A stretch of 64,000 bases of DNA, taken from contig CANFTW010000009.1 of the NCBI GenBank assembly GCA_947450025.1, positions 1 through 64,000 of the forward strand, given 5' to 3'. A program made the position numbers and the translations under genes. Under the pieces are notes generated by a model. That model was not told where the DNA came from and searched no databases. It saw only the letters and a program-made list of their open reading frames with translations. The stretch comes from Bacteroidota bacterium. Lineage in GTDB: Bacteria; Bacteroidota; Bacteroidia; B-17B0; Aurantibacillaceae. Below, in pieces: positions 18,607-34,811 of the stretch (positions are counted from its first letter, which is position 1; every line of letters begins with the position of its first letter).

Positions 18607-21600
18607 CTAGTATTGTAATAATAAATAACCGTTATACGCTTCTGTCTTATCATCTCCGTATACTAAAATTACATAGTAGGTACCCGCTGGTAATTTTGAC
18701 TTACCTGCCGCATCGCCTACATTAGCATATCCTAAAAACTCATTTGAGTACCCGTCCTTTTGATACACCAAGTTACCCCATCGATTGAAGATTTTTAATT
18801 GATTGTTCGGATAGTTCTCAATGTTCTTAATCACAAACCCATCATTCACGCCATCACCATTTGGTGAGAAAAATTCTGGCACAAACGTCTCACATAACTG
18901 CATGTCAACTAAACCTGTCGTTCTATTTTGACAACCGTTTTGATCTATCACCGTTACTGTATAGGTCCCCTGTGTGGATGGGGTTAATGGATTAATACTT
19001 AAACTTGTACCTGTGGATACAGTTTGTCCATTGGTCCAAGTATACGTATACGTTGTTACTGGACTTGCCACCGCTAACTGAGCACTAGCATTCTCACAAG
19101 CACTCACTTGCGAGCTCATCAGTGTGACACTTGGCAAAGCATTAACCGTTAAGGTATTGGCTGCTGTGTTTGTACACGTTCCTAAACTCGCTAAAACACT
19201 TACCGTATAAGTTCCGGCTACTCCTGTGACTGTGCTTGGAACCGTTAATGGATTTGCATTCGGTAACGTTTGTCCATTAATACTCCAATCATACACAACA
19301 TTCGCTTGCGGTGTATTAATGCTTATTGTGCCATTTTCATTTTGACAAATCACTAAATCACTTAAATCAAAATTCGCGTTTGGCACATTAATAACGTTCA
19401 ACGTTGTGGTTGCGGAAATCGATACACAACCATTCGTATCAGACGCTGTAACTGTATAAATATACATTCCTGTAGTTAAGCTAGATGCTGGAAACGTTAT
19501 GCTTCCTTGGTTTTGGTTACCTGTATTTATTCCATTACCTATTGTCCATGTATAACTCGTCGCTGTACTCGCCGCTGTTAAATTTACCGTGCCACTTGTA
19601 CAGGTTAAATTTGGATTTGCTGTAGCTGTTAGCGTTGGTAAAGCATTAACCGTCACATCAACCATTGTTAGCGTTGATGTACATCCTGTTAATGTATTAG
19701 TCCCCGTCACAGTATACGTACTATTCGTTGTTGGTGTTACAGTCGTAGTGCTTGTCGTTGCTCCTGTTGGTTGCCATTGATAGGTATCTGCTCCACTCGC
19801 TGCTAATGTTACGGAGCTTCCCGAACAAATCGTCGCGTTTGTCGTTGCTAATATCGGAAGCTGGTTCACATCAATCGTTATTGTCTCTGTTGCACTCGAA
19901 CATCCTTGTGCTTCTCCCATGATTGTATACGTGGTTAATACTGTTGGTGTTAAAACTATTGTATTAGTTGTTGTCTGAACTGGACTCATTAACGTATAAG
20001 TACTCGCTCCAGTTAGTGTTATAGTCGTTGTATTACCCAAACAAATCGTCGTCGCACTAGCTGATATCCCTATCGTCGGTGTCGGGGTAACATTTATCGT
20101 GATACTAGCTGTGTTGGAACAGCCTGTTAGTGTATTCGTGCCCGTCGCACTATAACTCGTCGTCGTCATCGGACTTACCGTTATCGTGGATGCTGTCTCC
20201 GTCGTGCTCCATACATAACTGTCAGCTCCTGTTATTGACACCACTGCAATCCCTCCTGAACATATTATCGTGTTAACCGAACTTGCAGTTAATATTGGTA
20301 AAGGGTTAACATTAACTGTAAAAGTTGTATTCCCATTACAACCAGATCCAGCAGATCCTAATACAGTATATGATGTTGTAGAAATTGGATTTAATGTAAA
20401 ACTTAATCCTGAAATTGCACTTGGCAATAAAGTATAAGTGCTGCCACCTTGGGGAGTAATAGTGGCTGTTGAACCAATACAAAGATCCGTATTTGCAACT
20501 GTAATACTTGCTGATAAAACAACTGAAACCGTTACTTGACTAATAGCACTTGAGCAAGTTTGACTGCCGTATGTGTTTGAAATAAACACGGAGTAAATTC
20601 CCGCATTAGCATTAGTTATTGAATTAGTTACAGTTGGAGAAGAAACTGAAGATGTATAAGAATTAGGTCCTGACCAATTAATATCTGTTCCTCCAGATAC
20701 TGCTGGCAATACCAATGAGTTTCCTGAACATAAAGAAATATTATCCGTTGGAATATTAACCGTAGGTGTTGCGTTAACCGTTATTAGAGTTGTTGCTAAA
20801 TTATTACTCACACATCCTGCGACACTCGTGCCTGTTAAAGTATACGTTGTATTACTTGTTGGTGATACTGTAAAGCTTGTGCCTGTTAACGCTCCTGGAT
20901 TTAAAGTATACGTACTTGCGCCTGTTGGTGTTGCTGTTGGTGTAATCACCGTTGAACCATTAGAACAAATCGTTGGATTACTTACGGATAAGACTGAAAC
21001 CGTTGGTGTTGTATTTACTGTAATTGCTGTCGTTGCTGAATTAGCACTGACACATCCTGCGACACTCGTGCCTGTTAAAGTATACGTTGTATTGGTTATT
21101 GGCGACACTGTAAAACTTGTGCCTGTTAACGCTCCTGGATTTAAAGTATATGTACTTGCGCCTGTTGGTGCTGCTGTTGGTGTAATCACCGTTGAACCAT
21201 TAGAACAAATCGTTGGATTGCTTACGGATAAGACTGAAACCGTTGGTGTTGTATTTACTGTAATTACTGTCGTTGCTGAATTAGCACTTACACATCCTGC
21301 GACACTCGTGCCTGTTAAAGTATACGTTGTATTTGTTGTTGGCGATACTGTAAAGCTTGCGCCTACTAATGCGCCTGGATTTAAAGTATAAGTGCTTGCG
21401 CCTGTTGGTGTTGCTGTTGGTGTAATCACCGTTGAACCATTAGAACAAATCGTTGGATTACTTACGGATAAGACTGAAACCGTTGGTGTTGTATTTACTG
21501 TAATTGCTGTCGTTGCTGAATTAGCACTTACACATCCTGCGACACTCGTGCCTGTTAAAGTATACGTTGTATTGGTTATTGGCGAAACTGTAAAACTTGT

Positions 21601-24600
21601 GCCTGTTAACGCTCCTGGATTTAAAGTATACGTACTTGCACCTATTGGTGTTGCTGTTGGTGTTATTATGCTAGTGTTGCCTGAACAAATCGTTGGATTG
21701 CTTACGGATAAGACTGAAACCGTTGGTGTTGTATTTACTGTAATTGCGGTCGTCGCTGAATTAGCACTGACACATCCTGCGACACTCGTGCCTGTTAAAG
21801 TATACGTTGTATTGGTTATTGGCGTCACTGTAAAGCTTGTGCCTGTTAACGCTCCTGGATTTAAAGTATACGTACTTGCGCCTGTTGGTGATGCTGTTGG
21901 TGTAATCACCGTTGAACCATTAGAACAAATCGTTGGATTACTTACGGATAAGACTGAAACCGTTGGTGTTGTATTTACTGTAATTGCTGTCGTTGCTGAA
22001 TTAGCACTTACACATCCTGCGACACTCGTACCTATTAAAGTATACGTTGTATTACTTGTTGGCGATACTGTAAAGCTTGTTCCTGTTAACGCTCCTGGAT
22101 TTAAAGTATATGTACTTGCGCCTGTTGGTGCTGCTGTTGGCGTTATTATGGTAGTGTTGCCTGAACAAATCGTTGGATTGCTTACGGATAAGACTGAAAC
22201 CGTTGGTGTTGTATTTACGACAATTGCTGTCGTTGCTGAATTAGCACTGACACATCCTGCGACACTCGTGCCTGTTAAAGTATACGTTGTATTGGTTATT
22301 GGCGACACTGTAAAACTTGTGCCTGTTAACGCTCCTGGATTTAAAGTATACGTACTTGCGCCTGTTGGTGTTGCTGTTGGTGTTATTATGGTAGTGTTGC
22401 CTGAACAAATCGTTGGATTACTTACGGATAAGACTGAAACCGTTGGTGTTGTATTTACGGTAATGACTGTCGTTGCTGAATTAGCACTTACACATCCTGC
22501 GACACTCGTGCCTGTTAAAGTATACGTTGTATTGGTTATTGGCGTCACTGTAAAGCTTGTGCCTACTAATGCGCCTGGATTTAATGTATAACTACTCGCT
22601 CCAGTTGGTGTTGCTGTTGGTGTAATCACTGTTGAACCATTAGAACAAATCGTTGGATTGCTTACGGATAAGACTGAAACCGTTGGTGTTGTATTTACTG
22701 TAATTGCTGTCGTTGCTGAATTAGCACTTACACATCCTGCGACACTCGTGCCTGTTAAAGTATACGTTGTATTGGTTATTGGTGACACTGTAAAGCTTGT
22801 GCCTGTTAACGCTCCTGGATTTAAAGTATACGTACTTGCGCCTATTGGTGTTGCTGTTGGTGTTATTATGGTAGTGTTGCCTGAACAAATCGTTGGATTG
22901 CTTACGGATAAGACTGAAACCGTTGGTGTTGTATTTACTGTAATTGCTGTCGTTGCTGAATTAGCACTGACACATCCTGCGACACTCGTGCCTGTTAAAG
23001 TATACGTCGTATTGGTTATTGGTGACACTGTAAAGCTTGTGCCTGTTAACGCTCCTGGATTTAAAGTATACGTACTTGCGCCTGTTGGAGTAATGGTAAC
23101 TGAATTATTAGAACAAATAGTAGAAGACGTAATTGTCAAACTAACGTTTACTGGACTTAAAGGTCCAGAAATTGTAACACTTTTTGTCGCTGTACATGTA
23201 CCGTCTGTAGCAGAAACTGTATACACATTAGCAGCTAAACCAGTTTGAACTGTTCCTGTTAAAGCACCTGGCATCCAAGTTACAGTATATGTTCCAGAGC
23301 CACCAGACGGTATTACAGTTGCTGCGCCAGTAGAACCGCCAAAACACGTCACACTTGTTGTTGCATTCACTGCTAATGAGACCCCTCCAGTACCTGCTGT
23401 GGCTAAAAATGTACAAATAGTGGAATTACCATGAGTATCTGTGACTGTCATGGTTACTGTAATGACTCCTGAAACTAAAGTTCCTGGAGCTGGATTTTGT
23501 GTTACTGTAAATGCACAATCATCAAATGCAACGACTTCAGGAACATAATTTCCTAAAACAGAAGAACAAGATGATCCAGTTAATGTTTTATCAGGAACAC
23601 AAGAAAGAATAATTGGAGGTAAGGTTTCCGTTGCACAATTAATAGCGGAACTACAACTAGCAATGTTTGTATTTATAGAAACTGCAGTAGGTAAAGATGT
23701 TGGAGAAAGAGTATTAGATCCGACCGCAGTGAAATTAGTTCCTGTAAAGGTTAAACTGTTTGAATTTGACAGCAAAATCGCTCCCGCAGGCAAATTATTA
23801 TTATAGATATTAACCTTTGCTGAACCAGAAGCTCCAGTTGAAGGCCCAAATGTACAGTTGGTAATTGTACCAGTCGCCGTAGCACCGTCTAAATAAAAAT
23901 CACTTCCCTTGTCAAAGGGGGTATTACTCGAAAATTTACAAGTATTGAAGTTAATAGAACCAGAAGAACTTCTCAATAAAATAGCTCCTCCATCAACCGA
24001 ACCATTATTTGGATTATTGACCTGATCATTATAATTTCCTGTAAATACGCAATTTGAAAAAGTAGTTGTTCCTGCTAATTTGTAAAAAGCTCCTCCCCCA
24101 TTTGTTGGATCAGAGGCATCTCCTGCAGTGAAATTATCTGAAAAATAAGAACCTTTAACCAACAATGTTCCTGAGCCTTGATAGATAGCGCCACCTCTTC
24201 TTGAGGAGCATCTGTTAAAAGTCGTATTATTGACAGTAACAACTGGACTAGCATTAAACATTTTGATGGCTCCTCCCCAATCAGCAAAATTTCTATCATC
24301 AATAAATAAGCAAGTATTAACTGTTAAATTAGAATTATCAACAAAAATAGAACCCCCACCATCTGCGTTCCATCCAGAACAACTTATAACAGAAGTATTA
24401 AATGTTACCACTGAGCCTGAAGACATATAAACGTTGGCTCCATTGCCAGCTACAGTAGCACCAGGGTTCTTCCGAATAACTACGTTTTCGAATAAAATAC
24501 CAGTAACTCCACTATTAATCATAAAAACTTGGCCTTGTGCCACATCATAATAATAATTAACAAAAGACAAATTTTTAAAAATAACATTACTAACTGTGAT

Positions 24601-24930
24601 TGTAGCAAATCTTTGATTGCCTGCACCATTATCAAAGATGGTATTCCCTGTTCCTGCTCCAATAATTGTTAATGCCTTTCCAAGAGTCAAGGTATTATCA
24701 TTATAGGTGCCTTTATCAATATAAATAGTATCTCCAGCAACAGCCACGCCATATGCTTGAGCTAAAGTTAATTTAGGAGTAGTAGTTGTTGTTCCATTGT
24801 TGGCTGCTAATCCAACTGAAAATGTAAATACATCTCCAACAGTTGAATTATTATTAACATAGATTTTTTTTGCACTCATATGAGTTGCAAAAAAAAGCAT
24901 TGACACAAATAAAATTTTAAATAACTTCAT
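18607..24930 (-). CDS. Giant T9SS type B adhesin with beta-helix, HYR and ten 80-residue repeats
   Basis: 2107 residues. Signal peptide (to MSAKK), then a right-handed parallel beta-helix of pectin-lyase type (about 20-400; GDTIYIDKGTYNDN, many Asn/Ser rungs). A HYR-like module follows (about 440-515), then one SprB-like repeat (AVNATTSVTCFGGSTGAATV). Next come about ten copies of an 80-residue Ig-like repeat (PTVSVLSVSNPTICS...CVSANSATT), further Ig-like and PKD-like modules, and a type B sorting domain (FFSPNGDGVNDGFVI...FNRWGNLVYQKDG). An SprB-like surface adhesin by architecture. The N-terminal module is shared with the type A protein at 32862-34811. First gene of an adhesin-SprF-PorE operon, with the shared upstream promoter element. 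Confidence 0.9.
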   Translation of the reverse strand: MKLFKILFVSMLFFATHMSAKKIYVNNNSTVGDVFTFSVGLAANNGTTTTTPKLTLAQAYGVAVAGDTIYIDKGTYNDNTLTLGKALTIIGAGTGNTIFDNGAGNQRFATITVSNVIFKNLSFVNYYYDVAQGQVFMINSGVTGILFENVVIRKNPGATVAGNGANVYMSSGSVVTFNTSVISCSGWNADGGGSIFVDNSNLTVNTCLFIDDRNFADWGGAIKMFNASPVVTVNNTTFNRCSSRRGGAIYQGSGTLLVKGSYFSDNFTAGDASDPTNGGGAFYKLAGTTTFSNCVFTGNYNDQVNNPNNGSVDGGAILLRSSSGSINFNTCKFSSNTPFDKGSDFYLDGATATGTITNCTFGPSTGASGSAKVNIYNNNLPAGAILLSNSNSLTFTGTNFTAVGSNTLSPTSLPTAVSINTNIASCSSAINCATETLPPIILSCVPDKTLTGSSCSSVLGNYVPEVVAFDDCAFTVTQNPAPGTLVSGVITVTMTVTDTHGNSTICTFLATAGTGGVSLAVNATTSVTCFGGSTGAATVIPSGGSGTYTVTWMPGALTGTVQTGLAANVYTVSATDGTCTATKSVTISGPLSPVNVSLTITSSTICSNNSVTITPTGASTYTLNPGALTGTSFTVSPITNTTYTLTGTSVAGCVSANSATTAITVNTTPTVSVLSVSNPTICSGNTTIITPTATPIGASTYTLNPGALTGTSFTVSPITNTTYTLTGTSVAGCVSANSATTAITVNTTPTVSVLSVSNPTICSNGSTVITPTATPTGASSYTLNPGALVGTSFTVTPITNTTYTLTGTSVAGCVSANSATTVITVNTTPTVSVLSVSNPTICSGNTTIITPTATPTGASTYTLNPGALTGTSFTVSPITNTTYTLTGTSVAGCVSANSATTAIVVNTTPTVSVLSVSNPTICSGNTTIITPTAAPTGASTYTLNPGALTGTSFTVSPTSNTTYTLIGTSVAGCVSANSATTAITVNTTPTVSVLSVSNPTICSNGSTVITPTASPTGASTYTLNPGALTGTSFTVTPITNTTYTLTGTSVAGCVSANSATTAITVNTTPTVSVLSVSNPTICSGNTSIITPTATPIGASTYTLNPGALTGTSFTVSPITNTTYTLTGTSVAGCVSANSATTAITVNTTPTVSVLSVSNPTICSNGSTVITPTATPTGASTYTLNPGALVGASFTVSPTTNTTYTLTGTSVAGCVSANSATTVITVNTTPTVSVLSVSNPTICSNGSTVITPTAAPTGASTYTLNPGALTGTSFTVSPITNTTYTLTGTSVAGCVSANSATTAITVNTTPTVSVLSVSNPTICSNGSTVITPTATPTGASTYTLNPGALTGTSFTVSPTSNTTYTLTGTSVAGCVSNNLATTLITVNATPTVNIPTDNISLCSGNSLVLPAVSGGTDINWSGPNSYTSSVSSPTVTNSITNANAGIYSVFISNTYGSQTCSSAISQVTVSVVLSASITVANTDLCIGSTATITPQGGSTYTLLPSAISGLSFTLNPISTTSYTVLGSAGSGCNGNTTFTVNVNPLPILTASSVNTIICSGGIAVVSITGADSYVWSTTETASTITVSPMTTTSYSATGTNTLTGCSNTASITINVTPTPTIGISASATTICLGNTTTITLTGASTYTLMSPVQTTTNTIVLTPTVLTTYTIMGEAQGCSSATETITIDVNQLPILATTNATICSGSSVTLAASGADTYQWQPTGATTSTTTVTPTTNSTYTVTGTNTLTGCTSTLTMVDVTVNALPTLTATANPNLTCTSGTVNLTAASTATSYTWTIGNGINTGNQNQGSITFPASSLTTGMYIYTVTASDTNGCVSISATTTLNVINVPNANFDLSDLVICQNENGTISINTPQANVVYDWSINGQTLPNANPLTVPSTVTGVAGTYTVSVLASLGTCTNTAANTLTVNALPSVTLMSSQVSACENASAQLAVASPVTTYTYTWTNGQTVSTGTSLSINPLTPSTQGTYTVTVIDQNGCQNRTTGLVDMQLCETFVPEFFSPNGDGVNDGFVIKNIENYPNNQLKIFNRWGNLVYQKDGYSNEFLGYANVGDAAGKSKLPAGTYYVILVYGDDKTEAYNGYLLLQY
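20761..23100 (-). repeat. 240-bp tandem repeat array, about 9.75 copies
   Basis: The landmark CTTACGGATAAGACTGAAAC recurs at 20981, 21221 and every 240 bp to 22901. Units begin at 20761 and every 240 bp after that. The 20761 unit is diverged. Two variants of one segment alternate: TGTAATCACCGTTGAACCAT (encodes SNGSTVITP) at 20941, 21181, 21421, 21901 and 22621, and TGTTATTATGGTAGTGTTGC (encodes SGNTTIITP) at 21661, 22141, 22381 and 22861, each with small variations. The period is exactly 80 codons, so unit gain or loss keeps the frame. Confidence 0.92.
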
Positions 24931-24975: not shown

Positions 24976-25037
24976 TAAAATTAAATCATTTACTGTCACA
25001 ACCCAGTAACAAAAATAAAAAAATTAGCAAGTCTGAT
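24976..25037 (-). promoter_or_regulatory. Giant-adhesin promoter with shared upstream element
   Basis: On the minus strand ATCAGACTTGCTA (25037-25025) is followed after exactly 41 bases by TAATTTTA (24983-24976), 46 bp before the ATG. The element abuts the ilvA stop codon. An alternative -7 box TATTTTTG lies at 25017-25010. Confidence 0.62.
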
Positions 25038-26278
25038 TAGATTAAAAACTGAAGCAAATTATCATTTTTATTTAAATATTCAAATTGAAAACCTGAATTT
25101 TTTAGCTTATGTTTTAATAACTCAAGATCTTTCGGTTCCTTAATCTCAAGCCCTACAAGAGCCGGGCCATTTTCCCGATTATTTTTTTTCATATATTCAA
25201 AATGCACAATGTCATCATTTGGCCCCAAAACGTTTCCTAAAAACTCTTTTAAAGCGCCTGCTCGTTGAGGAAATCTGATAACGAAAAAATGCTTTAGTCC
25301 CTCAAATACCAGCGATCGTTCCCTTATTTCCTCCGTTCGCATAATATCATTGTTGCTTCCACTAACCACACACACCACATTTTTACCTTTGAGTGTTTCT
25401 TTTAAATAATATAAAGACGCAACCGTTAATGCCCCTGCAGGCTCAACAACTATCGCTTGCTGATTGTATAAATTTAAAATCGTGGTACATACTTTCCCTT
25501 CAGGAACTAATACAATTTCACTCAATTTTTGTTTACATATATCAAATGTTTTAGCGCCAACTTTTTTGACGGCCGCTCCATCAACAAACTTATCAATTTC
25601 TAGTAACTCTGTATTATATCCATTCGCTATCGAAGTTTTCATAGAGGGGGCCCCTTCTGGTTCCACTCCAATGATTTTGGTATTAGGTTTTGTTTGCGAT
25701 AAGTAACTCACACAACCAGCTGCCAGTCCACCACCTCCAATTGGAACTAAAACATAATCAATTTCAAAATCTGCATCCTCAACTATTTCTTTAGCAACAG
25801 TTCCCTGACCTTCAATTACTTTTTCATCATCAAAGGGATGAACAAATGCTGCATTCTTTGATACACAAAATTCAACAGCGGCCTTGTAAGCATCATCAAA
25901 CGTATCACCAACTAATACAACATCCACATGCTCTTTACCAAATAATTTTACTTGACTAATTTTTTGCGAAGGAGTAGTTGCAGGCATAAAGATTGTGCCT
26001 TTGATATTTAACTTACGACATGAATAGGCTACCCCTTGTGCATGATTTCCAGCACTGGCGCAAACAACCCCGTTCTGTTTTTCTGCATCTGACAAAGAAC
26101 TGATTTTGTTGTACGCACCCCTAATTTTATATGAACGAACTACTTGTAAGTCTTCGCGTTTTAAATAAACGTTACAACCAAATTCTTCGCTCAATTGCAC
26201 ATTATATTGCAAAGGCGTATGCATTGATACACCTTTCAAATTTTGAGCAGCCTTGTTGATGTGATCTAATGATACCAT
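25037..26278 (-). CDS. ilvA: Threonine ammonia-lyase (threonine dehydratase), biosynthetic
   Basis: 413 residues. Deaminates threonine to 2-oxobutanoate, the first step towards isoleucine. A PLP-dependent fold type II enzyme: the PLP lysine is Lys51 in SYKIRGAYNK, the phosphate-binding loop is PIGGGGLAAG, and the Asn-bearing loop is SAGNHAQG. The C-terminal ~85 residues (HFFVIRFPQRAGALKEFL) form a single ACT-like regulatory domain, as in short forms of the enzyme, so allosteric control by Ile or Val is expected. Last gene of the ilv operon, 25 bp after ilvC, and placed under the isoleucine attenuator. Its genetic context favours the biosynthetic over the catabolic form. Confidence 0.93.
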   Translation of the reverse strand: MVSLDHINKAAQNLKGVSMHTPLQYNVQLSEEFGCNVYLKREDLQVVRSYKIRGAYNKISSLSDAEKQNGVVCASAGNHAQGVAYSCRKLNIKGTIFMPATTPSQKISQVKLFGKEHVDVVLVGDTFDDAYKAAVEFCVSKNAAFVHPFDDEKVIEGQGTVAKEIVEDADFEIDYVLVPIGGGGLAAGCVSYLSQTKPNTKIIGVEPEGAPSMKTSIANGYNTELLEIDKFVDGAAVKKVGAKTFDICKQKLSEIVLVPEGKVCTTILNLYNQQAIVVEPAGALTVASLYYLKETLKGKNVVCVVSGSNNDIMRTEEIRERSLVFEGLKHFFVIRFPQRAGALKEFLGNVLGPNDDIVHFEYMKKNNRENGPALVGLEIKEPKDLELLKHKLKNSGFQFEYLNKNDNLLQFLI

Positions 26279-26303
26279 GTGGTGATTTTAAATTTCTTAA
26301 AAC

Positions 26304-27773
26304 TTATCCTATTTTCTTCATCTCTGTCATTGACTCTCTTAGCCAAGCGCCAACCTCTTCTATTGGGTGATTTCTGATGCTCTGATTTACTTTGATTAAT
26401 AATGTATTATCTACCCCATTCGAACTTGCAAATGCTCTTCCAATCACATTAGTCTCGATGCTTTTCATGAACTCATTTAATAATGGTTTACAAGCATGAT
26501 CAAATAAATAGCATCCATATTCAGCCGTGTCCGAAATAATTCGGTTCATCTCATACAATTTTTTACGTGCTACTGTATTAGCGATTAATGGCAACTCATG
26601 CAGCGATTCATAGTAAGCTGACTCTTCAATAATACCAGATTCGGTCATCGTTTCAAAAGCTAACTCAACGCCCGCTTTCACCATGGCAATAATTAATACA
26701 CCATGATCAAAATATTCTTGCTCAGAAATAACTGAATCAGTTGCAGAAGTTTTTTCAAAATTAGTTTCTGCAGTAGCCGCCCTCCAGCTTAACAAATTAA
26801 TATCATCATTTCCCCAATCAGCCATCATGTTTTTAGAAAACTCACCAGATAAAATATCATCCATATGTTTTTGGAATAATGGACGCAAGATTGATTTCAA
26901 TTCTTCTGCTAATTCAAATGCTTTGATTTTTGAAGGATTATTTAAGCGATCCATCATGTTGGTTATTCCTCCATGCTTCAAGGCTTCAGTAATAGTTTCC
27001 CAACCATATTGAACTAACTTAGAAGCATAACTTGGTTCTATTCCCTTCTCGACCATTTTATCAAAACATAAAATAGAACCAGTTTGTAACATCCCACACA
27101 AAATAGTTTGTTCACCCATTAAATCCGATTTTACTTCTGCTACAAAAGATGAATTTAAAACGCCAGCTCTATGGCCACCTGTTGCAACTGCATATGCTTT
27201 TGCTTGATTAAACCCTTCTCCATTTGGATTATTTTCAGGATGCACAGCTATTAATGTTGGCACACCAAATCCTCTTTTATATTCTTCGCGAACTTCCGAA
27301 CCAGGACATTTAGGAGCACACATGATTACCGTTATGTCTTTACGTATTTGCATGCCTTCTTCCACAATGTTAAAGCCATGAGAATAAGACAACGTAGAGC
27401 CTTTCTTCATTAAAGGCATAATGGCATTAACTACAGACTTGTGCTGTTTATCAGGAGTTAAATTACAAACTAAGTCAGCAGTTGGAATAAGATCTTCATA
27501 AGTACCAACTTTAAATCCATTTTCAGTGGCATTTAAATATGATGCGCGTTTTTGAGATATTGCATCTGCTCTTAAGGCGTAAGAAATGTCCAAGCCAGAA
27601 TCTCTCATATTTAAACCTTGATTTAATCCTTGAGCTCCACAACCAACAATCACAATTTTTTTATTCTTAAGAGCAAATACACCATCTGCGAATTCTGATT
27701 GATCCATGAATTCACAAACACCTAATTGTTCAAGTTGTAATCTAAGGGGTAATGTGTTGAAATAATTTTCCAT
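26304..27773 (-). CDS. ilvC: Ketol-acid reductoisomerase, class II
   Basis: 489 residues, the length of the long class II enzymes (E. coli type) and well above the ~330 of class I. Converts acetolactate or acetohydroxybutyrate to dihydroxy acids with NADPH and Mg2+. The N-terminal Rossmann motif is [20 protein letters not shown]. The knotted C-terminal helical domain is duplicated, as expected for class II, with metal-binding acidic stretches ([19 protein letters not shown]). It lies 7 bp after ilvN and 25 bp before ilvA. Confidence 0.95.
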
Positions 27774-27780
27774 ATATAAT

Positions 27781-28335
27781 TTATTTATTAAAATGTTTAA
27801 CAGTTGTTTTGCTATTGTTTTCTACTTCTTTTAAAAAGGTATTTAATGTTTTCATTGGTTTAGTAATGGCTACTCTTCCACTTCTCACAAATTCTAACAT
27901 GCCAAATTTTTCTAAATCGTTGAACAAGTGTTTTATCTCTCGCTCATCTCCAGTTTTTTCTATTACAATAAATTCGGGAGAAATGCTCAATATCTTCGCG
28001 TGATTTTCATTAACTATACGTGTAAATAATTCGTTTTCCTTCAAAGCATCAGCCGATACTTTATATAAAGCCATTTCACGTGATAGGATATCGTTATTGA
28101 TATGATAAAATGCTTTTAAAACTTCTACTTGCTTTTCTATTTGTCCAACTAATTTTTCGACTTGTTCTTGAGAAACAGTTACAACAATTGTATAACGATA
28201 GATTCCCTTGACTTCACTTTCGCTAGCAGTGATACTTTCTATATTAATATGTCTTCGAGTAAAGATGATGGTTACTCTATTTAATAAACCAATTTTATCT
28301 TCTGTAAAAATTGAAAGTGTATATGTATTTTCCAT
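27781..28335 (-). CDS. ilvN: Acetolactate synthase small (regulatory) subunit
   Basis: 184 residues. The N-terminal ACT domain ([21 protein letters not shown]...[11 protein letters not shown]) is the valine-binding regulatory module of IlvN/IlvH, followed by the usual C-terminal ALS_ss domain ending in the R.G..A. segment ([12 protein letters not shown]). It activates the catalytic subunit and gives it end-product sensitivity. It directly follows the large-subunit gene (5 bp gap) in the ilv operon. Confidence 0.93.
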
Positions 28336-28340
28336 AATTT

Positions 28341-30056
28341 CTATTCTAATATGATTTCTGAAACACTTGCTCCTGTTGTGATCATAGGGAAAACGTTTTC
28401 TTCGTTTTCTACTACAACCTCTAACAAATACGCTTCTTTTGATTCATACATTTCCTTTAATGCCTCTTTTAAATCTTTTCTTTCTGTGACTTTTTTTCCT
28501 TTAATATTATAGCAATTCGCAATAGCCACAAAATTTGGATTTTTCATTTCTGTAAATGAATAGCGTCTGTCAAAAAACAACTGTTGCCACTGACGAACCA
28601 TTCCTAAAAAATTATTATTCAATACCAAAATCTTTACCGGAATATCACTCTGCATAATTGTTCCTAATTCCTGTATCGTCATTTGAAAACCACCGTCACC
28701 TAAAACTGCCACTACTTCTTTATTTGGTTGAGCAACTTTAGCGCCAACTGCTGCAGGTAATCCAAAGCCCATAGTTCCTAATCCACCTGAAGTGACATTA
28801 TGATTTGGGTGATTAAATTTATAGTAACGAGAAGTGATCATTTGATGTTGACCAACATCCGTAACAACTATCGCATTACCTTCACTTAATTGATGAAACT
28901 GATGAATAACTTCTGCCATTCTTAATTTTTCTGTAGCAGGATTAACGGCATTTTTTACAACCTTTTCAAATTCTACTTTAGCACATTCTGTGAATTTTTG
29001 TAACCATTGAGCATGTTTTTGAGCTTTAACTTTTGGTAATAATAATTCCAAAGCTTCCTTAGCATCTCCTAATACTGCCACATCAGCATGTATGATTTTA
29101 TTCACTTCTGATGGATCAATTTCGAAATGAACCACTTTAGCTTGTTTCGCATATTTCGAAACATTACCTGTCACTCGATCATCAAAACGCATTCCTATCG
29201 CTATTAAAACATCACACTCATTGGTTAATAAATTAGGGCCGTAATTCCCATGCATCCCTAAGTAGCCAACATATAATTCATGAGTTGGTGGGAAGGCTCC
29301 TAAACCTAATAGAGTTGAAGCTACTGGTATATTTGCTTTTTCAGCTAAGTCTAATAATTGTTTTTCGGCTCCAGATAATAATACACCATGACCACATAAT
29401 ATATAAGGTCGCTGAGCGTTATTAATTAATTCAGCAGCTTTTGAAACTTCCTCTTCATTAACTTTAGGGCAAGGAAAATAACTTCGGATGCTTTCACATT
29501 TCTCATAAACATATTTTGTCTTGCCAAACTGTGCATCTTTTGTGATATCAACTAATACAGGACCTGGACGACCAGATGTTGCTATATAAAATGCTTTAGC
29601 GATTGCAGGCGCGATGTCTTCTGCCTTCGTCACTTGGATATTCCATTTAGTAACCGGCATCGATATCCCAACTACATCCGTTTCTTGAAAAGCATCAGTT
29701 CCTAATAAGTGAGAATGTACTTGTCCTGTTATACAAACCAACGGCGTTGAATCTATTTGCGCATCCGCAATGCCTGTTATTAAATTAGTAGCGCCTGGAC
29801 CTGATGTAGCGAATACAACTCCTGGCTTTCCAGATACTCTTGAATAACCTTGCGCCGCATGAGTAGCACCTTGCTCGTGACGAACTAAGTAATGATTTAA
29901 TTGATCCATATAATCATAAAGCGCATCATACACCGGCATGATAGCGCCTCCTGGATAACCAAATACATCCGTTACTTGAGCATCTAACAATGATAATATC
30001 ACTGCTTCTGCTCCCGTTACTTCTGTTTGATATTTATTATGTTTTTTCATTTTCAA
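28341..30056 (-). CDS. ilvB: Acetolactate synthase large (catalytic) subunit
   Basis: 571 residues. A thiamine-diphosphate enzyme that condenses pyruvate with pyruvate or 2-oxobutanoate. Visible features: catalytic Glu in VRHEQGATHAAQGYSR, the FAD-domain middle region, and the ThDP/Mg motif GDGGFQMTIQEL...NN. Starts MKMKKHNKYQ; initiation at the first or third codon cannot be distinguished. It overlaps tightly with its neighbours (1 bp after ilvD, 5 bp before ilvN), so translation is probably coupled. Confidence 0.95.
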   Translation of the reverse strand: MKMKKHNKYQTEVTGAEAVILSLLDAQVTDVFGYPGGAIMPVYDALYDYMDQLNHYLVRHEQGATHAAQGYSRVSGKPGVVFATSGPGATNLITGIADAQIDSTPLVCITGQVHSHLLGTDAFQETDVVGISMPVTKWNIQVTKAEDIAPAIAKAFYIATSGRPGPVLVDITKDAQFGKTKYVYEKCESIRSYFPCPKVNEEEVSKAAELINNAQRPYILCGHGVLLSGAEKQLLDLAEKANIPVASTLLGLGAFPPTHELYVGYLGMHGNYGPNLLTNECDVLIAIGMRFDDRVTGNVSKYAKQAKVVHFEIDPSEVNKIIHADVAVLGDAKEALELLLPKVKAQKHAQWLQKFTECAKVEFEKVVKNAVNPATEKLRMAEVIHQFHQLSEGNAIVVTDVGQHQMITSRYYKFNHPNHNVTSGGLGTMGFGLPAAVGAKVAQPNKEVVAVLGDGGFQMTIQELGTIMQSDIPVKILVLNNNFLGMVRQWQQLFFDRRYSFTEMKNPNFVAIANCYNIKGKKVTERKDLKEALKEMYESKEAYLLEVVVENEENVFPMITTGASVSEIILE

Positions 30057-30057
30057 A

Positions 30058-31731
30058 TTATAAATCGGTTAAACAACCTTTACTAGCAGAACTTACTTGT
30101 TTAGCATATTTATACAACACACCAAACTTTACTTTCAATTCTGGTTGTTGCCATTGTTTTTTTCTTTCAACTAATTCTTCACTTGACACTTGAATATCAA
30201 TTTTATTATTCACCGCGTCAATCATAATCACATCGCCATCTTTTACTAAGGCTATTGGTCCGCCATCAAATGCTTCTGGACTCACATGTCCCACTACAAA
30301 TCCATGTGTACCACCAGAAAAACGACCATCTGTAATTAAGGCTACGCTATTACCTAAACCTGCACCTATTAAAGCAGAAGTAGGCTTTAACATTTCCGGC
30401 ATACCTGGCCCACCTTTTGGCCCTTCATTTCGGATGACTAATACTTGACCTGCTTTTACTTTTCCTTCGCGTATTCCTTTGATGCATTCAAATTCATTTT
30501 CAAAAACGATTGCTGGTCCGGTAAATGATTCTCCTTCTTTACCTGTAATTTTTGCTACAGAGCCTTCAGGAGCTAAATTGCCATATAAGATTCTTAAATG
30601 TCCGTTTGCTTTTACCGGGTTAGTTACAGGTAATATCACATCTTGTCCATCAGGCAATGCATTCACGGCATCCAAATTTTCTTTAATGGTTTTTCCAGTT
30701 ACCGTTAAACAATCTCCATGTAATAAACCTTGTTGCAATAAATATTTCATCACAGCTGGCACACCTCCAACTGCAAATACATCTTCCATTAAGTATTTAC
30801 CACTTGGTTTTAAATCAGCTAATACAGGTGTTTTGGCATTTACTCTAGTAACATCTTCCAAAGTAAAATCAACATTTGCCGTTTTTGCCATCGCTAATAA
30901 ATGCAACACCGCATTTGTCGAACCGCCTAATACAACTACTACCGTTAAAGCATTTTCAAACGCTTTTTTAGATAATATATCTGATGGCTTGATGTTTTTT
31001 TCTAATAGCACTTTTAAATACTCTCCTGCTTTTAAACATTCTTCTTTTTTATCATCACTCAAAGCAGGGTTTGAAGAACTATATGGTAAACTTAAACCCA
31101 TTGCTTCTATAGCAGATGACATAGTATTTGCTGTATACATGCCTCCGCAAGCACCAGCCCCAGGGCAAGCATTTTTGACAACACCTTTAAAATCTTCTTC
31201 AGATATTTTACCGGCATATTTTTCTCCTAAAGCTTCAAAGGCAGAAACGATATTTAACTTTTTTCCTTTATAATTTCCTGAAGCTATAGTCCCTCCATAC
31301 ACCATGATGGATGGACGATTGACACGTATCATAGCCATCGTCACACCAGGCATATTTTTATCACAACCGGCTATGGTTATTAAACCATCATAGTAATGAG
31401 CCGCAGTAACGGCTTCAACAGAATCAGCAATAATTTCACGAGACACTAATGAATAACGCATTCCCTCAGTTCCATTGGTAATACCGTCACTTATCCCTAT
31501 GGTATTAAATTGTAACCCCACCATGCCATTTTTACGAACGCCGTCTTTTACAAAAGCCGACAATCCGTTCAAGTGCATATTACAAGTGTTCCCTTCATAC
31601 CAAGTTGATGCAATACCTACTTGAGGTTTCTTCATATCCTCTTCGGTTAAACCGATGCCATATAACATAGCTTGAGAAGCAGGTTGAGATTCATCTTGAG
31701 TAACTGTTTTACTATAGCGATTTAATTCCAT
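30058..31731 (-). CDS. ilvD: Dihydroxy-acid dehydratase
   Basis: 557 residues, the normal length. An Fe-S dehydratase producing the 2-oxo acid precursors of valine and isoleucine. The three cluster cysteines are seen in [16 protein letters not shown] and [19 protein letters not shown]. The C-terminal barrel has the [19 protein letters not shown] signature. The C-terminus is complete. It is the second gene of the operon, 11 bp after ilvE and 1 bp before ilvB. Confidence 0.95.
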
Positions 31732-31742
31732 GGTTGATTATT

Positions 31743-32633
31743 TTATACAAGTGAAAAATTTCCGTATTCATTAAATGCAACGCGTCGTGTATATTTAGCT
31801 TGAAGAATATACCCTAAAGAGTCTTCCCATTTTAATTTAAACGGCACTTTATCTAATGACGCTATTCCTGCAACTTCTGCTGCAGTTCCAGTAAAGAAGG
31901 CGCTATCCGCACCTCTTACTTCTTCAGGAGTAAAATATTTTTCTACTAATTTAAATCCTAATTCATGACATAATTCGAACATTGTTGCGCGAGTAATCCC
32001 TGGTAATATATTCCCTAAAGGAGAAGTATAAAGCACCTCGTCTTTTTCGAAAAAGAAATTTGCTCCTGGTCCTTCAGCGACATTTCCGTTTGCATCTAAC
32101 AATAAAGCCTCATCAAATCCTTTGTTTTTAGCTTCTGTTGTGGCTAAAATAGAATTCACATAATGACCTGTTACTTTTGCTTCGACGTGACAAGATTTTG
32201 GATTTGGACGTTGATACGAAGATGTCATAACATCCAGCATCTTACTACCTAAATATTTTCCCCATTCCCAAGCACATAACATCACATGAACTTCCTCTGC
32301 AGGAGTTAATGACATATTAGCACCAGCAAATATTAATGGGCGGATATAGGCATTACTTAAATTATTTTTTTCTAATAACTGATAGGTTAATTGAGTAAAC
32401 TCTTCTGCCGTATAATTTACTTTCAAATACATCTTTTCAGCTGAGAACAATAATCTTTCATAATGTTCTTTTGATTTAAATACTCTGGTGCCATCAGGAG
32501 TAGCGTATGAACGAATACCTTCAAATACGCCACTACCATAATGCATCACTTGCACATAAGGACTCACCATTAAATCTTTTGCTTTTACCCATTCTCCATT
32601 AAAGAAAACTACTGTGTTGTCGTTGTAATACAT
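31743..32633 (-). CDS. ilvE: Branched-chain amino acid aminotransferase
   Basis: 296 residues, fold type IV PLP enzyme. The PLP lysine is Lys153 in EAKVTGHYVNS. Other family marks are HYGSGVFEGIRSY near the N-terminus and LPGITRATMFEL in the second domain. It carries out the last step of Val, Ile and Leu synthesis. It is the first structural gene of the ilv operon, 91 bp downstream of the leader peptide stop and behind the attenuator hairpin, so its expression should respond to charged tRNA-Ile. Confidence 0.94.
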   Translation of the reverse strand: MYYNDNTVVFFNGEWVKAKDLMVSPYVQVMHYGSGVFEGIRSYATPDGTRVFKSKEHYERLLFSAEKMYLKVNYTAEEFTQLTYQLLEKNNLSNAYIRPLIFAGANMSLTPAEEVHVMLCAWEWGKYLGSKMLDVMTSSYQRPNPKSCHVEAKVTGHYVNSILATTEAKNKGFDEALLLDANGNVAEGPGANFFFEKDEVLYTSPLGNILPGITRATMFELCHELGFKLVEKYFTPEEVRGADSAFFTGTAAEVAGIASLDKVPFKLKWEDSLGYILQAKYTRRVAFNEYGNFSLV

Positions 32634-32663: not shown

Positions 32664-32698
32664 AAAATAAAAAAAGCCTTTCCCGTCGGAAAGGCTTT
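32664..32698 (-). terminator. Attenuator terminator of the ilv operon
   Basis: A perfect 11-bp stem, AAAGCCTTTCC and GGAAAGGCTTT around a 4-base loop (arms 32698-32688 and 32683-32673 on the minus strand), is followed by TTTTTATTTTC. The 5' arm segment CCTTTCC (32694-32688) can instead pair with GGGAAGG (32721-32715), which begins two bases after the leader stop codon, forming an antiterminator with one G-U pair. Confidence 0.85.
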
Positions 32699-32723
32699 GT
32701 TAATATAACATTATCCTTCCCTC

Positions 32724-32771
32724 TTATGAGAGTGGAATAATAATGATAATATTAGATGTGCTTTGTTTCAT
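32724..32771 (-). CDS. ilv operon leader peptide
   Basis: A 15-codon frame on the minus strand encodes MKQSTSNIIIIIPLS and a TAA stop. It has five successive isoleucine codons (32750-32736) and one leucine codon, with no valine. It starts about 21 bases after the predicted -7 box and ends just ahead of a terminator that precedes ilvE. Stalling on the Ile run would leave the antiterminator strand free. A ribosome reaching the stop would cover it and let the terminator form. The position, codon content and hairpins together make a classical attenuator, inferred from the sequence. Confidence 0.82.
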   Translation of the reverse strand: MKQSTSNIIIIIPLS

Positions 32772-32792: not shown

Positions 32793-32854
32793 CAAAATTA
32801 TATATTTTAAGCCAACTGACAATTACAAATTATATACTATTTAGTGAGTCTGAT
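32793..32854 (-). promoter_or_regulatory. ilv operon promoter with shared upstream element
   Basis: Minus strand: ATCAGACTCACTA (32854-32842), 41 bases, then TAATTTTG (32800-32793). An ATTG at 32823-32820 lies 19 bases before the -7 box and serves as -33, so this is a full Bacteroidota promoter as well as a carrier of the shared element. Confidence 0.75.
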
Positions 32855-32861
32855 TTTTGTT

Positions 32862-34811
32862 TTATAATTTAATGTATTTATGAATTTGCTCTTGATTATT
32901 GATGACTGTTTTAATAAAATAAATACCTGATTTAACTGAACTAAAATCCAATGGATAGGTTTGGAACCCTTTTTCAAATTTCAAATTCTCATAAGAATTA
33001 ACTAATTGTCCTATGTGATTGTATATGTATACGGATATTGAAGAAGGGTGGAATAATTTCAATTTCAAAAATGAATTTCCTTCTGATGGATTAGGAAATA
33101 AAGTGATGATAGCATCTTGCTTTTTATCACAATCCTGTGAAACAGAAACTATTTTAGATTCAGTTCTTTTACGATTATAGTCACTTTGGGTTAAACGATA
33201 ATAAACCATACCTTCATTTATTGAAGTATCTGTGAAACTATAAGTCGCATTAGACTCACGATTGCCAAGTCCATTTACTTTGCCGATTATTTCAAACGAG
33301 ATTCCATCATTAGAACGCTCTACTTCAAAATCAAGATTATTTTTTTCCGAAGCGGTTTCCCAATTTAAAATAATATCTCCCTCTTGACAGTCACCCTCAA
33401 ATCTAACTAATTCTATTGGCAACAAAATTAAAACCGCTCCGCAAGCTCCTGTAAATGATGGTGTACTGATGATTGGCGTGTATACTGTATGTGGACTAGC
33501 CGCAAATGATGTTAACGCATTTCCACCTTTATTTGGTGCTGTTCCGAAATAAGTTACATTAAATGTATTCGCAGCGCCATCACTTATAGGCGTAGCGCCA
33601 TCATAATTAAAAATATTATAATTCGACCCTGTTCCTGTAGATAAAAACCGACAATCACGCATTGTTACAAAAGCATTATATGTTGGTCCAGATCTTCTAA
33701 CATAAACATCACTATATCCTACAGCAGTATTTAATTGAAAAACGCATGTATCAATTGTTAGATTAACATGTCCTTCGTTGGCATTTACACAAATAGCACC
33801 ACCTTTTGGCGCTGAATTTTTTGAAAATTTAGAATTAGATATTGCTAAAGTTCCTTGTGTAATATAAATTCCTCCGCCATAATTTGCGGAAGCTATATTA
33901 CTATCAATCATACAATTTTTAATGGTGATGTTGCCTCCTCGAAAACACATAGCGCCCCCCTCACTACTAGTTGTATTGCTATAAAAACGTGTTTTTGTGA
34001 CACTAATATTTGTGGTATTATCAGCTGCATACGTGTACAATCCTCCGCCAAAAAAACCTGCGCTTTTAGAATTATAACTAACTAAATAATTAGAAATCAC
34101 TAAATTAATAGCCGTGCCATACACATCGATGCCTCCTGCATAGGAGCCACCATAGGCATTACAAGTTGAGCCTCCGCCAGTAATAGTAGCAGTTGTCATT
34201 GGTTGAATAGCAATGGCTGCATTACCTGTCCCAGCATTATCATAGGTCTGAACATTTTGTAATAAGATTCCTGAAATAGTAGATGTCCCAGTGCCTACTG
34301 TAAAAGCCTGTCCACCTGTATTAACAGAAGCTACCGTTATCCCACTATTACTTGCCCCTCCAGTATATTCGCGAACCGTCATATCCTTAACAGAAACATT
34401 ATTCGCTTTTATCCACATAAAAAAATCTGTATTTGGGCCATGGAAATTATGATCAAAAATAGTTTTTCCAACTCCAGTGCCTTGGAAGGTGATACCACTT
34501 GTGGTAATAATAAAATTTGCTTCATCGTTAGCTGCAAAACCTGTTGTAGAATAAGTTCCAGCATCAATGTAAATAACATCCCCCAAAGTAAACAAAGCAC
34601 TATATAGATTAAACAAATATCTTAAAGTTAAAACAGGTGTAGAAGCTGACATGCCTCTGCCAGCGGCATCAATGCCAATATGATTTACTCCTCCTACAAA
34701 ACAAAATACGTCTCCTGTCGTGTATCCATCATTAACATAATAATTAGTCGCAATTATTTTATTACAACTAAATAATAAATTAAAATACATGAAAAGCACG
34801 ATCTTTCTCAT
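32862..34811 (-). CDS. T9SS type A cargo: beta-helix surface or secreted protein
   Basis: 649 residues. Signal peptide, then a right-handed beta-helix of pectate-lyase type (about 20-450; GDVIYIDAGTYSTTGF, GITFQGTGVGKTIFDH, many Asn/Gly rungs). A beta-sandwich stretch common ahead of type A signals follows (LVRFEGDCQEGDIILNWETASEKNN...FEVERSNDG). A type A sorting domain ends the protein (ITLFPNPSEGNSFLKL...SGIYFIKTVINN). The first ~120 residues align by eye with the start of the 2107-residue adhesin (YVN...T.GDVF.F...TPVLTL...GD.IYID.GTY), so the two share an N-terminal module but use different sorting signals. Substrate unknown; a lyase activity is not implied by the fold. Confidence 0.85.
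   Translation of the reverse strand: MRKIVLFMYFNLLFSCNKIIATNYYVNDGYTTGDVFCFVGGVNHIGIDAAGRGMSASTPVLTLRYLFNLYSALFTLGDVIYIDAGTYSTTGFAANDEANFIITTSGITFQGTGVGKTIFDHNFHGPNTDFFMWIKANNVSVKDMTVREYTGGASNSGITVASVNTGGQAFTVGTGTSTISGILLQNVQTYDNAGTGNAAIAIQPMTTATITGGGSTCNAYGGSYAGGIDVYGTAINLVISNYLVSYNSKSAGFFGGGLYTYAADNTTNISVTKTRFYSNTTSSEGGAMCFRGGNITIKNCMIDSNIASANYGGGIYITQGTLAISNSKFSKNSAPKGGAICVNANEGHVNLTIDTCVFQLNTAVGYSDVYVRRSGPTYNAFVTMRDCRFLSTGTGSNYNIFNYDGATPISDGAANTFNVTYFGTAPNKGGNALTSFAASPHTVYTPIISTPSFTGACGAVLILLPIELVRFEGDCQEGDIILNWETASEKNNLDFEVERSNDGISFEIIGKVNGLGNRESNATYSFTDTSINEGMVYYRLTQSDYNRKRTESKIVSVSQDCDKKQDAIITLFPNPSEGNSFLKLKLFHPSSISVYIYNHIGQLVNSYENLKFEKGFQTYPLDFSSVKSGIYFIKTVINNQEQIHKYIKL

Follow-up and report, generated by a model that had tools for sequence, protein, structure and literature searches.

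A probable ribosome-dependent isoleucine attenuator of Bacteroidota ilv operons, with serial units in some lineages

How is isoleucine synthesis controlled at this Bacteroidota locus, and is the control element shared by other members of the phylum? The window, i.e., the whole 64,000-nucleotide stretch of DNA that was analyzed, carries an operon of six genes in the order ilvE-D-B-N-C-A; all six exceeded their NCBIfam cut-offs, in agreement with the original prediction. According to these matches, the enzymes make isoleucine, the amino acid proposed to be sensed, and also serve valine. Between ilvE (32633) and the end of a gene for a 649-aa protein (32862) lies a compact minus-strand leader, the parts of which are listed in Table 1. 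On either side of the operon, at 18607-24930 and 32862-34811 of the minus strand, is a gene for a protein with a C-terminal domain of the type IX secretion kind (CHU_C and Por_Secre_tail).

Table 1. Features of the leader and the operon in the window
Feature	Coordinates	Strand	Basis
Promoter -7 box TAATTTTG, TAnnTTTG type	32793..32800	minus	Sequence; conserved in close leaders
Leader peptide gene MKQSTSNIIIIIPLS, including stop	32724..32771	minus	Sequence; Ile-rich frame kept in genus
Leader start ATG	32771-32769	minus	Sequence
Five sensed Ile codons, ATT ATC ATT ATT ATT	32736..32750	minus	Sequence
Single Leu codon of leader, CTC	32732-32730	minus	Sequence
Leader stop TAA	32726-32724	minus	Sequence
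Antiterminator arm 2, GGGAAGG	32715..32721	minus	Arm-pairing tests, pair counts
Arm 3, CCTTTCC, common to antiterminator and terminator	32688..32694	minus	Pair counts
Intrinsic terminator hairpin, then U-rich tail	32673..32698	minus	11 pairs, 4-nt loop
Predicted protector hairpin	32701..32754	minus	Fold
Small hairpin TGTTA-TAT-TAACA inside antiterminator loop	32698..32710	minus	Fold
ilvE, first structural gene	31743..32633	minus	NCBIfam match
ilvD, ilvB, ilvN, ilvC, ilvA	25037..31731	minus	NCBIfam matches

The leader frame comprises 15 codons, its ATG lies 21 bases from the TAATTTTG box, and arm 2 begins two bases past its stop codon. The frame, the five Ile codons and the promoter spacing had been predicted correctly to the base, as had the coordinates of the GGGAAGG/CCTTTCC pairing, which includes one G-U pair, and the 11-bp terminator that shares CCTTTCC. 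Two further elements appear in the predicted folds and had been missed. One is a protector hairpin, in which the Ile-codon segment CATTATT (32745-32739) would pair with GATAATG (32715-32709); the other is the small hairpin inside the antiterminator loop, and similar small hairpins were recognized by eye in relatives.

We consider it very probable that this device controls transcription by classical ribosome-dependent attenuation, with charged tRNA-Ile as the signal. Transcription would start shortly before the leader ATG, and a ribosome would follow the RNA polymerase; Bacteroidota largely start translation without Shine-Dalgarno sequences. When Ile-tRNA is ample, the ribosome would reach the stop codon and cover GGGAAGG, CCTTTCC would pair with its 3' partner, and transcription would stop before ilvE. 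When Ile-tRNA is scarce, the ribosome would wait on the Ile codons, opening the protector hairpin but staying short of arm 2, and the free arm 2 would pair with CCTTTCC before the 3' arm of the terminator is made, so that the polymerase enters ilvE-D-B-N-C-A. If no ribosome is loaded, the protector would sequester arm 2 and the terminator would form. That the leader is translated, that the structures fold in this order and that the system responds to isoleucine are inferences. The calculated energies constrain this scheme: the terminator is the stabler fold even when region 2 is free (-17.2 versus -11.8 kcal/mol for the antiterminator), and thus the switch must depend on folding order, with arm 2 pairing first.

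An Ile-rich frame next to a hairpin could arise by chance, and the hairpin might merely terminate the gene upstream. That gene, which encodes the 649-aa protein, is read in the same direction as the operon, and about 160 bases separate its end from the hairpin. Translated in six frames, the 64 kb contains five consecutive Ile codons at two places. We ran a detector for ATG frames of 7 to 50 codons with at least six of eight consecutive codons for Ile, Val or Leu and a terminator shortly after. It returned eight matches in the window, four of them antisense to a gene for a 2107-aa protein and only one, the leader described here, with five Ile; 20 Markov-shuffled windows, searched on both strands, gave two matches, none with five Ile. 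The leader also folded more stably than all 200 of its shuffles (z of -5.75). A conserved TAnnTTTG box stands between the 649-aa gene and the hairpin. Among 17 close leaders, 15 have the box on their 5' side, and one of the two exceptions has just 18 nt of sequence. Across a wider set with one locus per non-redundant entry, 28 of 74 loci had it, whereas the opposite strand gave 2 of 74. A scan of the window for sigma-70-type promoters did no better than in shuffled sequence (5 found, 5.5 expected) and was uninformative, so the promoter assignment rests on the box and its conservation.

Conservation in the genus bears on the same question. Of 20 genomes of the genus, nine gave a match to ilvD, and all nine have an Ile-rich leader with a terminator at a threshold of five of eight codons (three of nine at six of eight). 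The Ile run, which had been expected to be conserved in relatives, was thus kept at the laxer threshold. One close relative stands apart: L022, with an 86% identical ilvE, has no leader or terminator visible in the 181 nt upstream (L022:1-181), where its contig ends; this counts against the expectation that close relatives keep the frame. Given this recurrence, the conserved box, and the way in which arm 2 and codon spacing track the terminator over the phylum (see below), a chance frame beside the terminator of the upstream gene is a very unlikely explanation.

Both hairpins had likewise been expected to show compensatory changes. The antiterminator and terminator helices can form in all 17 close leaders, although our script picked another antiterminator register in L008. 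RNAalifold, applied to these 17 sequences, found both partners changed in 2 of the 10 pairs of the terminator and in none of the 5 pairs of the antiterminator, and it did not predict the protector or the hairpin inside the antiterminator loop; the program was limited by the likeness of the sequences and by alignment gaps. For that reason pairs were also counted directly. At the terminator pair nearest the loop, nine leaders have C-G and five have T-A; at another terminator pair, 14 have T-A, two have C-G and one has T-G. Both helices are kept in close relatives with C-G/T-A exchanges; the covariation signal from RNAalifold was weak.

We also evaluated how common such leaders are in the phylum. 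One hundred eighteen ilvD loci were assembled from the nine genus genomes, the 29 best phylum matches and 80 chosen among the matches listed. The strict detector found a leader in 60 of them, at least two of which (L111 and L113) look spurious, and none in about half; run on the opposite strand, it found 1 in 118. Adding 52 of 60 ilvE loci (L065-L072 were omitted as partial or distant) gave 170 loci, with some genomes occurring in both sets. Here leaders were detected in 113 loci at the laxer threshold and in 95 at the strict one, as opposed to 9 and 2, respectively, when the sequences were reversed. These loci yielded 130 distinct leaders. Removal of spurious or doubtful cases (L063, L107, L111, L113), leaders with fewer than 12 nt between their end and the stem, and near-duplicates left 90 non-redundant leaders, among which at least one doubtful case (the first leader of L163) was retained. 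The surveyed sequences indicate that Bacteroidota commonly control isoleucine and valine synthesis by classical attenuation.

The 90 leaders were used to examine the two relationships on which the proposed mechanism depends. Arm 2 pairs with the terminator arm of its own locus at a mean of -13.8 kcal/mol, as opposed to -8.85 kcal/mol (standard deviation of 0.26, 100 permutations) when terminators were swapped between loci; shuffled arms gave -6.7 kcal/mol. Lineage composition may add to the difference obtained by swapping arms, a weakness from which the within-locus shuffle is free. Spacing was measured in the 80 leaders that had an arm energy of -10 kcal/mol or better and an Ile/Val run. The median distance from the last Ile or Val codon of the run to arm 2 was 15 nt (interquartile range of 13 to 16), and in the window the last Ile codon starts 17 nt before arm 2. 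A spacing of 13 to 18 nt was found in 58 of the 80 leaders, compared with 27% when arm positions were permuted (maximum of 44% in 2,000 permutations). Codon and arm positions were correlated with a coefficient of 0.91, the permuted values having a mean of 0.35 and a maximum of 0.60. This spacing is kept although the position of arm 2 relative to the stop codon varies: counted from the first base of that codon, the arm begins anywhere between 29 bases upstream and 9 bases downstream.

A ribosome extends about 12 nt beyond the codon in its A site. A ribosome stalled at the last Ile or Val codon would therefore end, roughly, just short of arm 2, and one at the stop codon would cover it. The fit of arm 2 to its terminator and the codon-to-arm spacing thus lend support to the ribosome-dependent mechanism of the original prediction. 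The parts, their conservation, the arm 2-terminator match and the spacing can all be read in the sequence itself. T-boxes, riboswitches and protein-bound attenuators likewise use rival terminator and antiterminator folds, and any of them could act here with the Ile-rich frame left untranslated. An Rfam search of the window at the gathering threshold returned a tRNA gene as its sole match, which led us to reject a T-box or riboswitch, and the observed spacing would have no rationale without a ribosome reading the frame. We regard this whole class of explanations as highly improbable.

Many ribosome-dependent attenuators, though not all, have a protector hairpin, and such a hairpin is likely to be general among the leaders. 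The codon region paired with region 2 at -11.5, compared with -9.3 and -9.0 for shuffles and -9.75 for swapped regions. Natural Ile/Val codons folded better than random synonyms in 84% of the 90 leaders, and natural Val codons did so in 85% of 80 leaders; for the window leader alone, 14% of 300 synonymous variants were equally stable, which is not significant. Codon usage in the leaders is also distinctive. The Ile codons of the 90 leaders are 78% ATT, 15% ATC and 7% ATA, compared with 40, 29 and 31%, respectively, in the ilvE genes of 52 loci and 52, 18 and 30% in nine open reading frames of the window. Among Val codons, GTC accounts for 48% in leaders as opposed to 6% in ilvE of the 52 loci and 11% in the nine window frames. 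Protector pairing may explain part of this bias.

The tRNA content of two genomes was inspected. Among the 28 tRNA matches of the source genome, a list that is probably incomplete in that tRNA-Ile with anticodon GAU is absent, the only Val anticodon found is UAC, represented by one gene. A complete genome (G282) with 60 tRNA matches, one of them not identified, likewise gave UAC as the only Val anticodon, in three genes. ARAGORN reported in G282 a tRNA-Ile with anticodon UAU (L220:1784-1857), which is unusual for a bacterium. Selective charging of isoacceptors, an idea found in the available part of PMC1183508, fails to explain the choice of GTC in G282, as UAC is the sole Val anticodon found there.

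Which amino acids are sensed is a separate matter. An attenuator of the same kind could respond to branched-chain amino acids generally, Ile together with Leu or Val, rather than to Ile alone. The original prediction that Ile, with one Leu and no Val, is the sensed residue holds for the window leader but does not generalize: Val occurs in 80 of the 90 non-redundant leaders and lies within the sensed run of three of the nine same-genus leaders (L006, L007 and L012). Such mixed leaders, the single Leu codon in the window and the role of the operon enzymes in valine synthesis all fit a broader signal. Against it, the window leader has five Ile codons and none for Val, and the geometry suggests that a ribosome stalled at the Leu codon would extend into the beginning of arm 2. 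Furthermore, the source genome, rated 99.96% complete, has no match to LeuA_dimer, nor to HisG, and hence offers no leuA or hisG leaders for comparison. On balance, the broader signal is unlikely for the window, and charged tRNA-Ile is the favored reading. The source organism is possibly a leucine and histidine auxotroph that keeps an isoleucine/valine operon. A close ilvE (E value of 1e-60 or better) was found in 11 of 76 family genomes; together with the missing LeuA_dimer and HisG matches, this suggests that the operon is patchy in a group seemingly short of amino-acid pathways.

The window carries a single leader-plus-terminator unit. Outside it, 23 of the 113 loci with a detected leader gave two complete units in series ahead of ilvE or ilvD (L024, L034, L038-L041, L048, L052, L057-L059, L061, L062, L064, L083, L088, L089, L115, L130, L131, L143, L171 and L174), and one of these, L058 from Oceanihabitans sediminis, has three; the set includes loci that are closely related to each other. 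The count excludes double detections in L113, L151 and L163, which were judged spurious. A second unit was also seen, by eye or with a laxer search, in L023, L026, L027 and L033, and accepting GTG as a start codon adds one in L081, from the window's own family. Of 24 intervals between units, 18 have the following ATG 7 to 30 nt past the preceding terminator, which is probably too near for the downstream unit to have a promoter of its own.

The ilv leaders of Escherichia coli and Salmonella mix Ile, Val and Leu codons. Like their ilvGMEDA and ilvBN systems, the window combines a short leader with branched-chain codons, a rival antiterminator and terminator, and an ilv operon; unlike them, its leader has Ile with one Leu and is preceded by a Bacteroidota promoter box. 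These enterobacterial attenuators are named in the available part of PMC1183508. A 2010 survey, as far as its available text goes, treats leader-peptide attenuation as known in Proteobacteria and Actinobacteria and adds Firmicutes (PMC2965389). Within Bacteroidota, leader-peptide attenuation has been suggested in accessible portions of PMC7366714 and, upstream of amino-acid operons of Flavobacterium psychrophilum, of PMC9723704. The latter proposal concerns the same phylum and mechanism, and its accessible portion does not mention ilv detail, codon-to-arm spacing or serial units.

For serial units, the nearest parallel is the pair of tandem attenuators of Salmonella mgtCBR, which, like the tandem ilv leaders, have two short ORFs per leader RNA (available part of PMC3641672). 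According to the same excerpt, the mgtCBR ORFs sense different signals, ATP and proline. The tandem ilv units differ from that system as described there in that every unit has an intrinsic terminator to itself and all sense codons of one type. That 2012 paper, in the part available, presents tandem attenuators as singular and one attenuator as the norm (PMC3641672). Our literature search, which covered mostly non-subscription papers, found no tandem leader-peptide attenuators before amino-acid operons. From sequence comparison it is well supported that the window device belongs to a known class of attenuators. The spacing statistics and the serial units are the features likely to surprise a specialist.

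Thus, the ilv attenuator of Bacteroidota is probably built on a ribosome ruler of about 15 nt, even where the arm lies in coding sequence, and repeated serially, up to three times per transcript, in many lineages. The natural set of leaders provides a statistical measure of the reach of a stalled ribosome. If the serial arrangement works as proposed, the termination probabilities of successive units would multiply and the response to isoleucine and valine would become sharper. The serial units make it testable how stacking similar attenuators affects leakiness and the steepness of the response.
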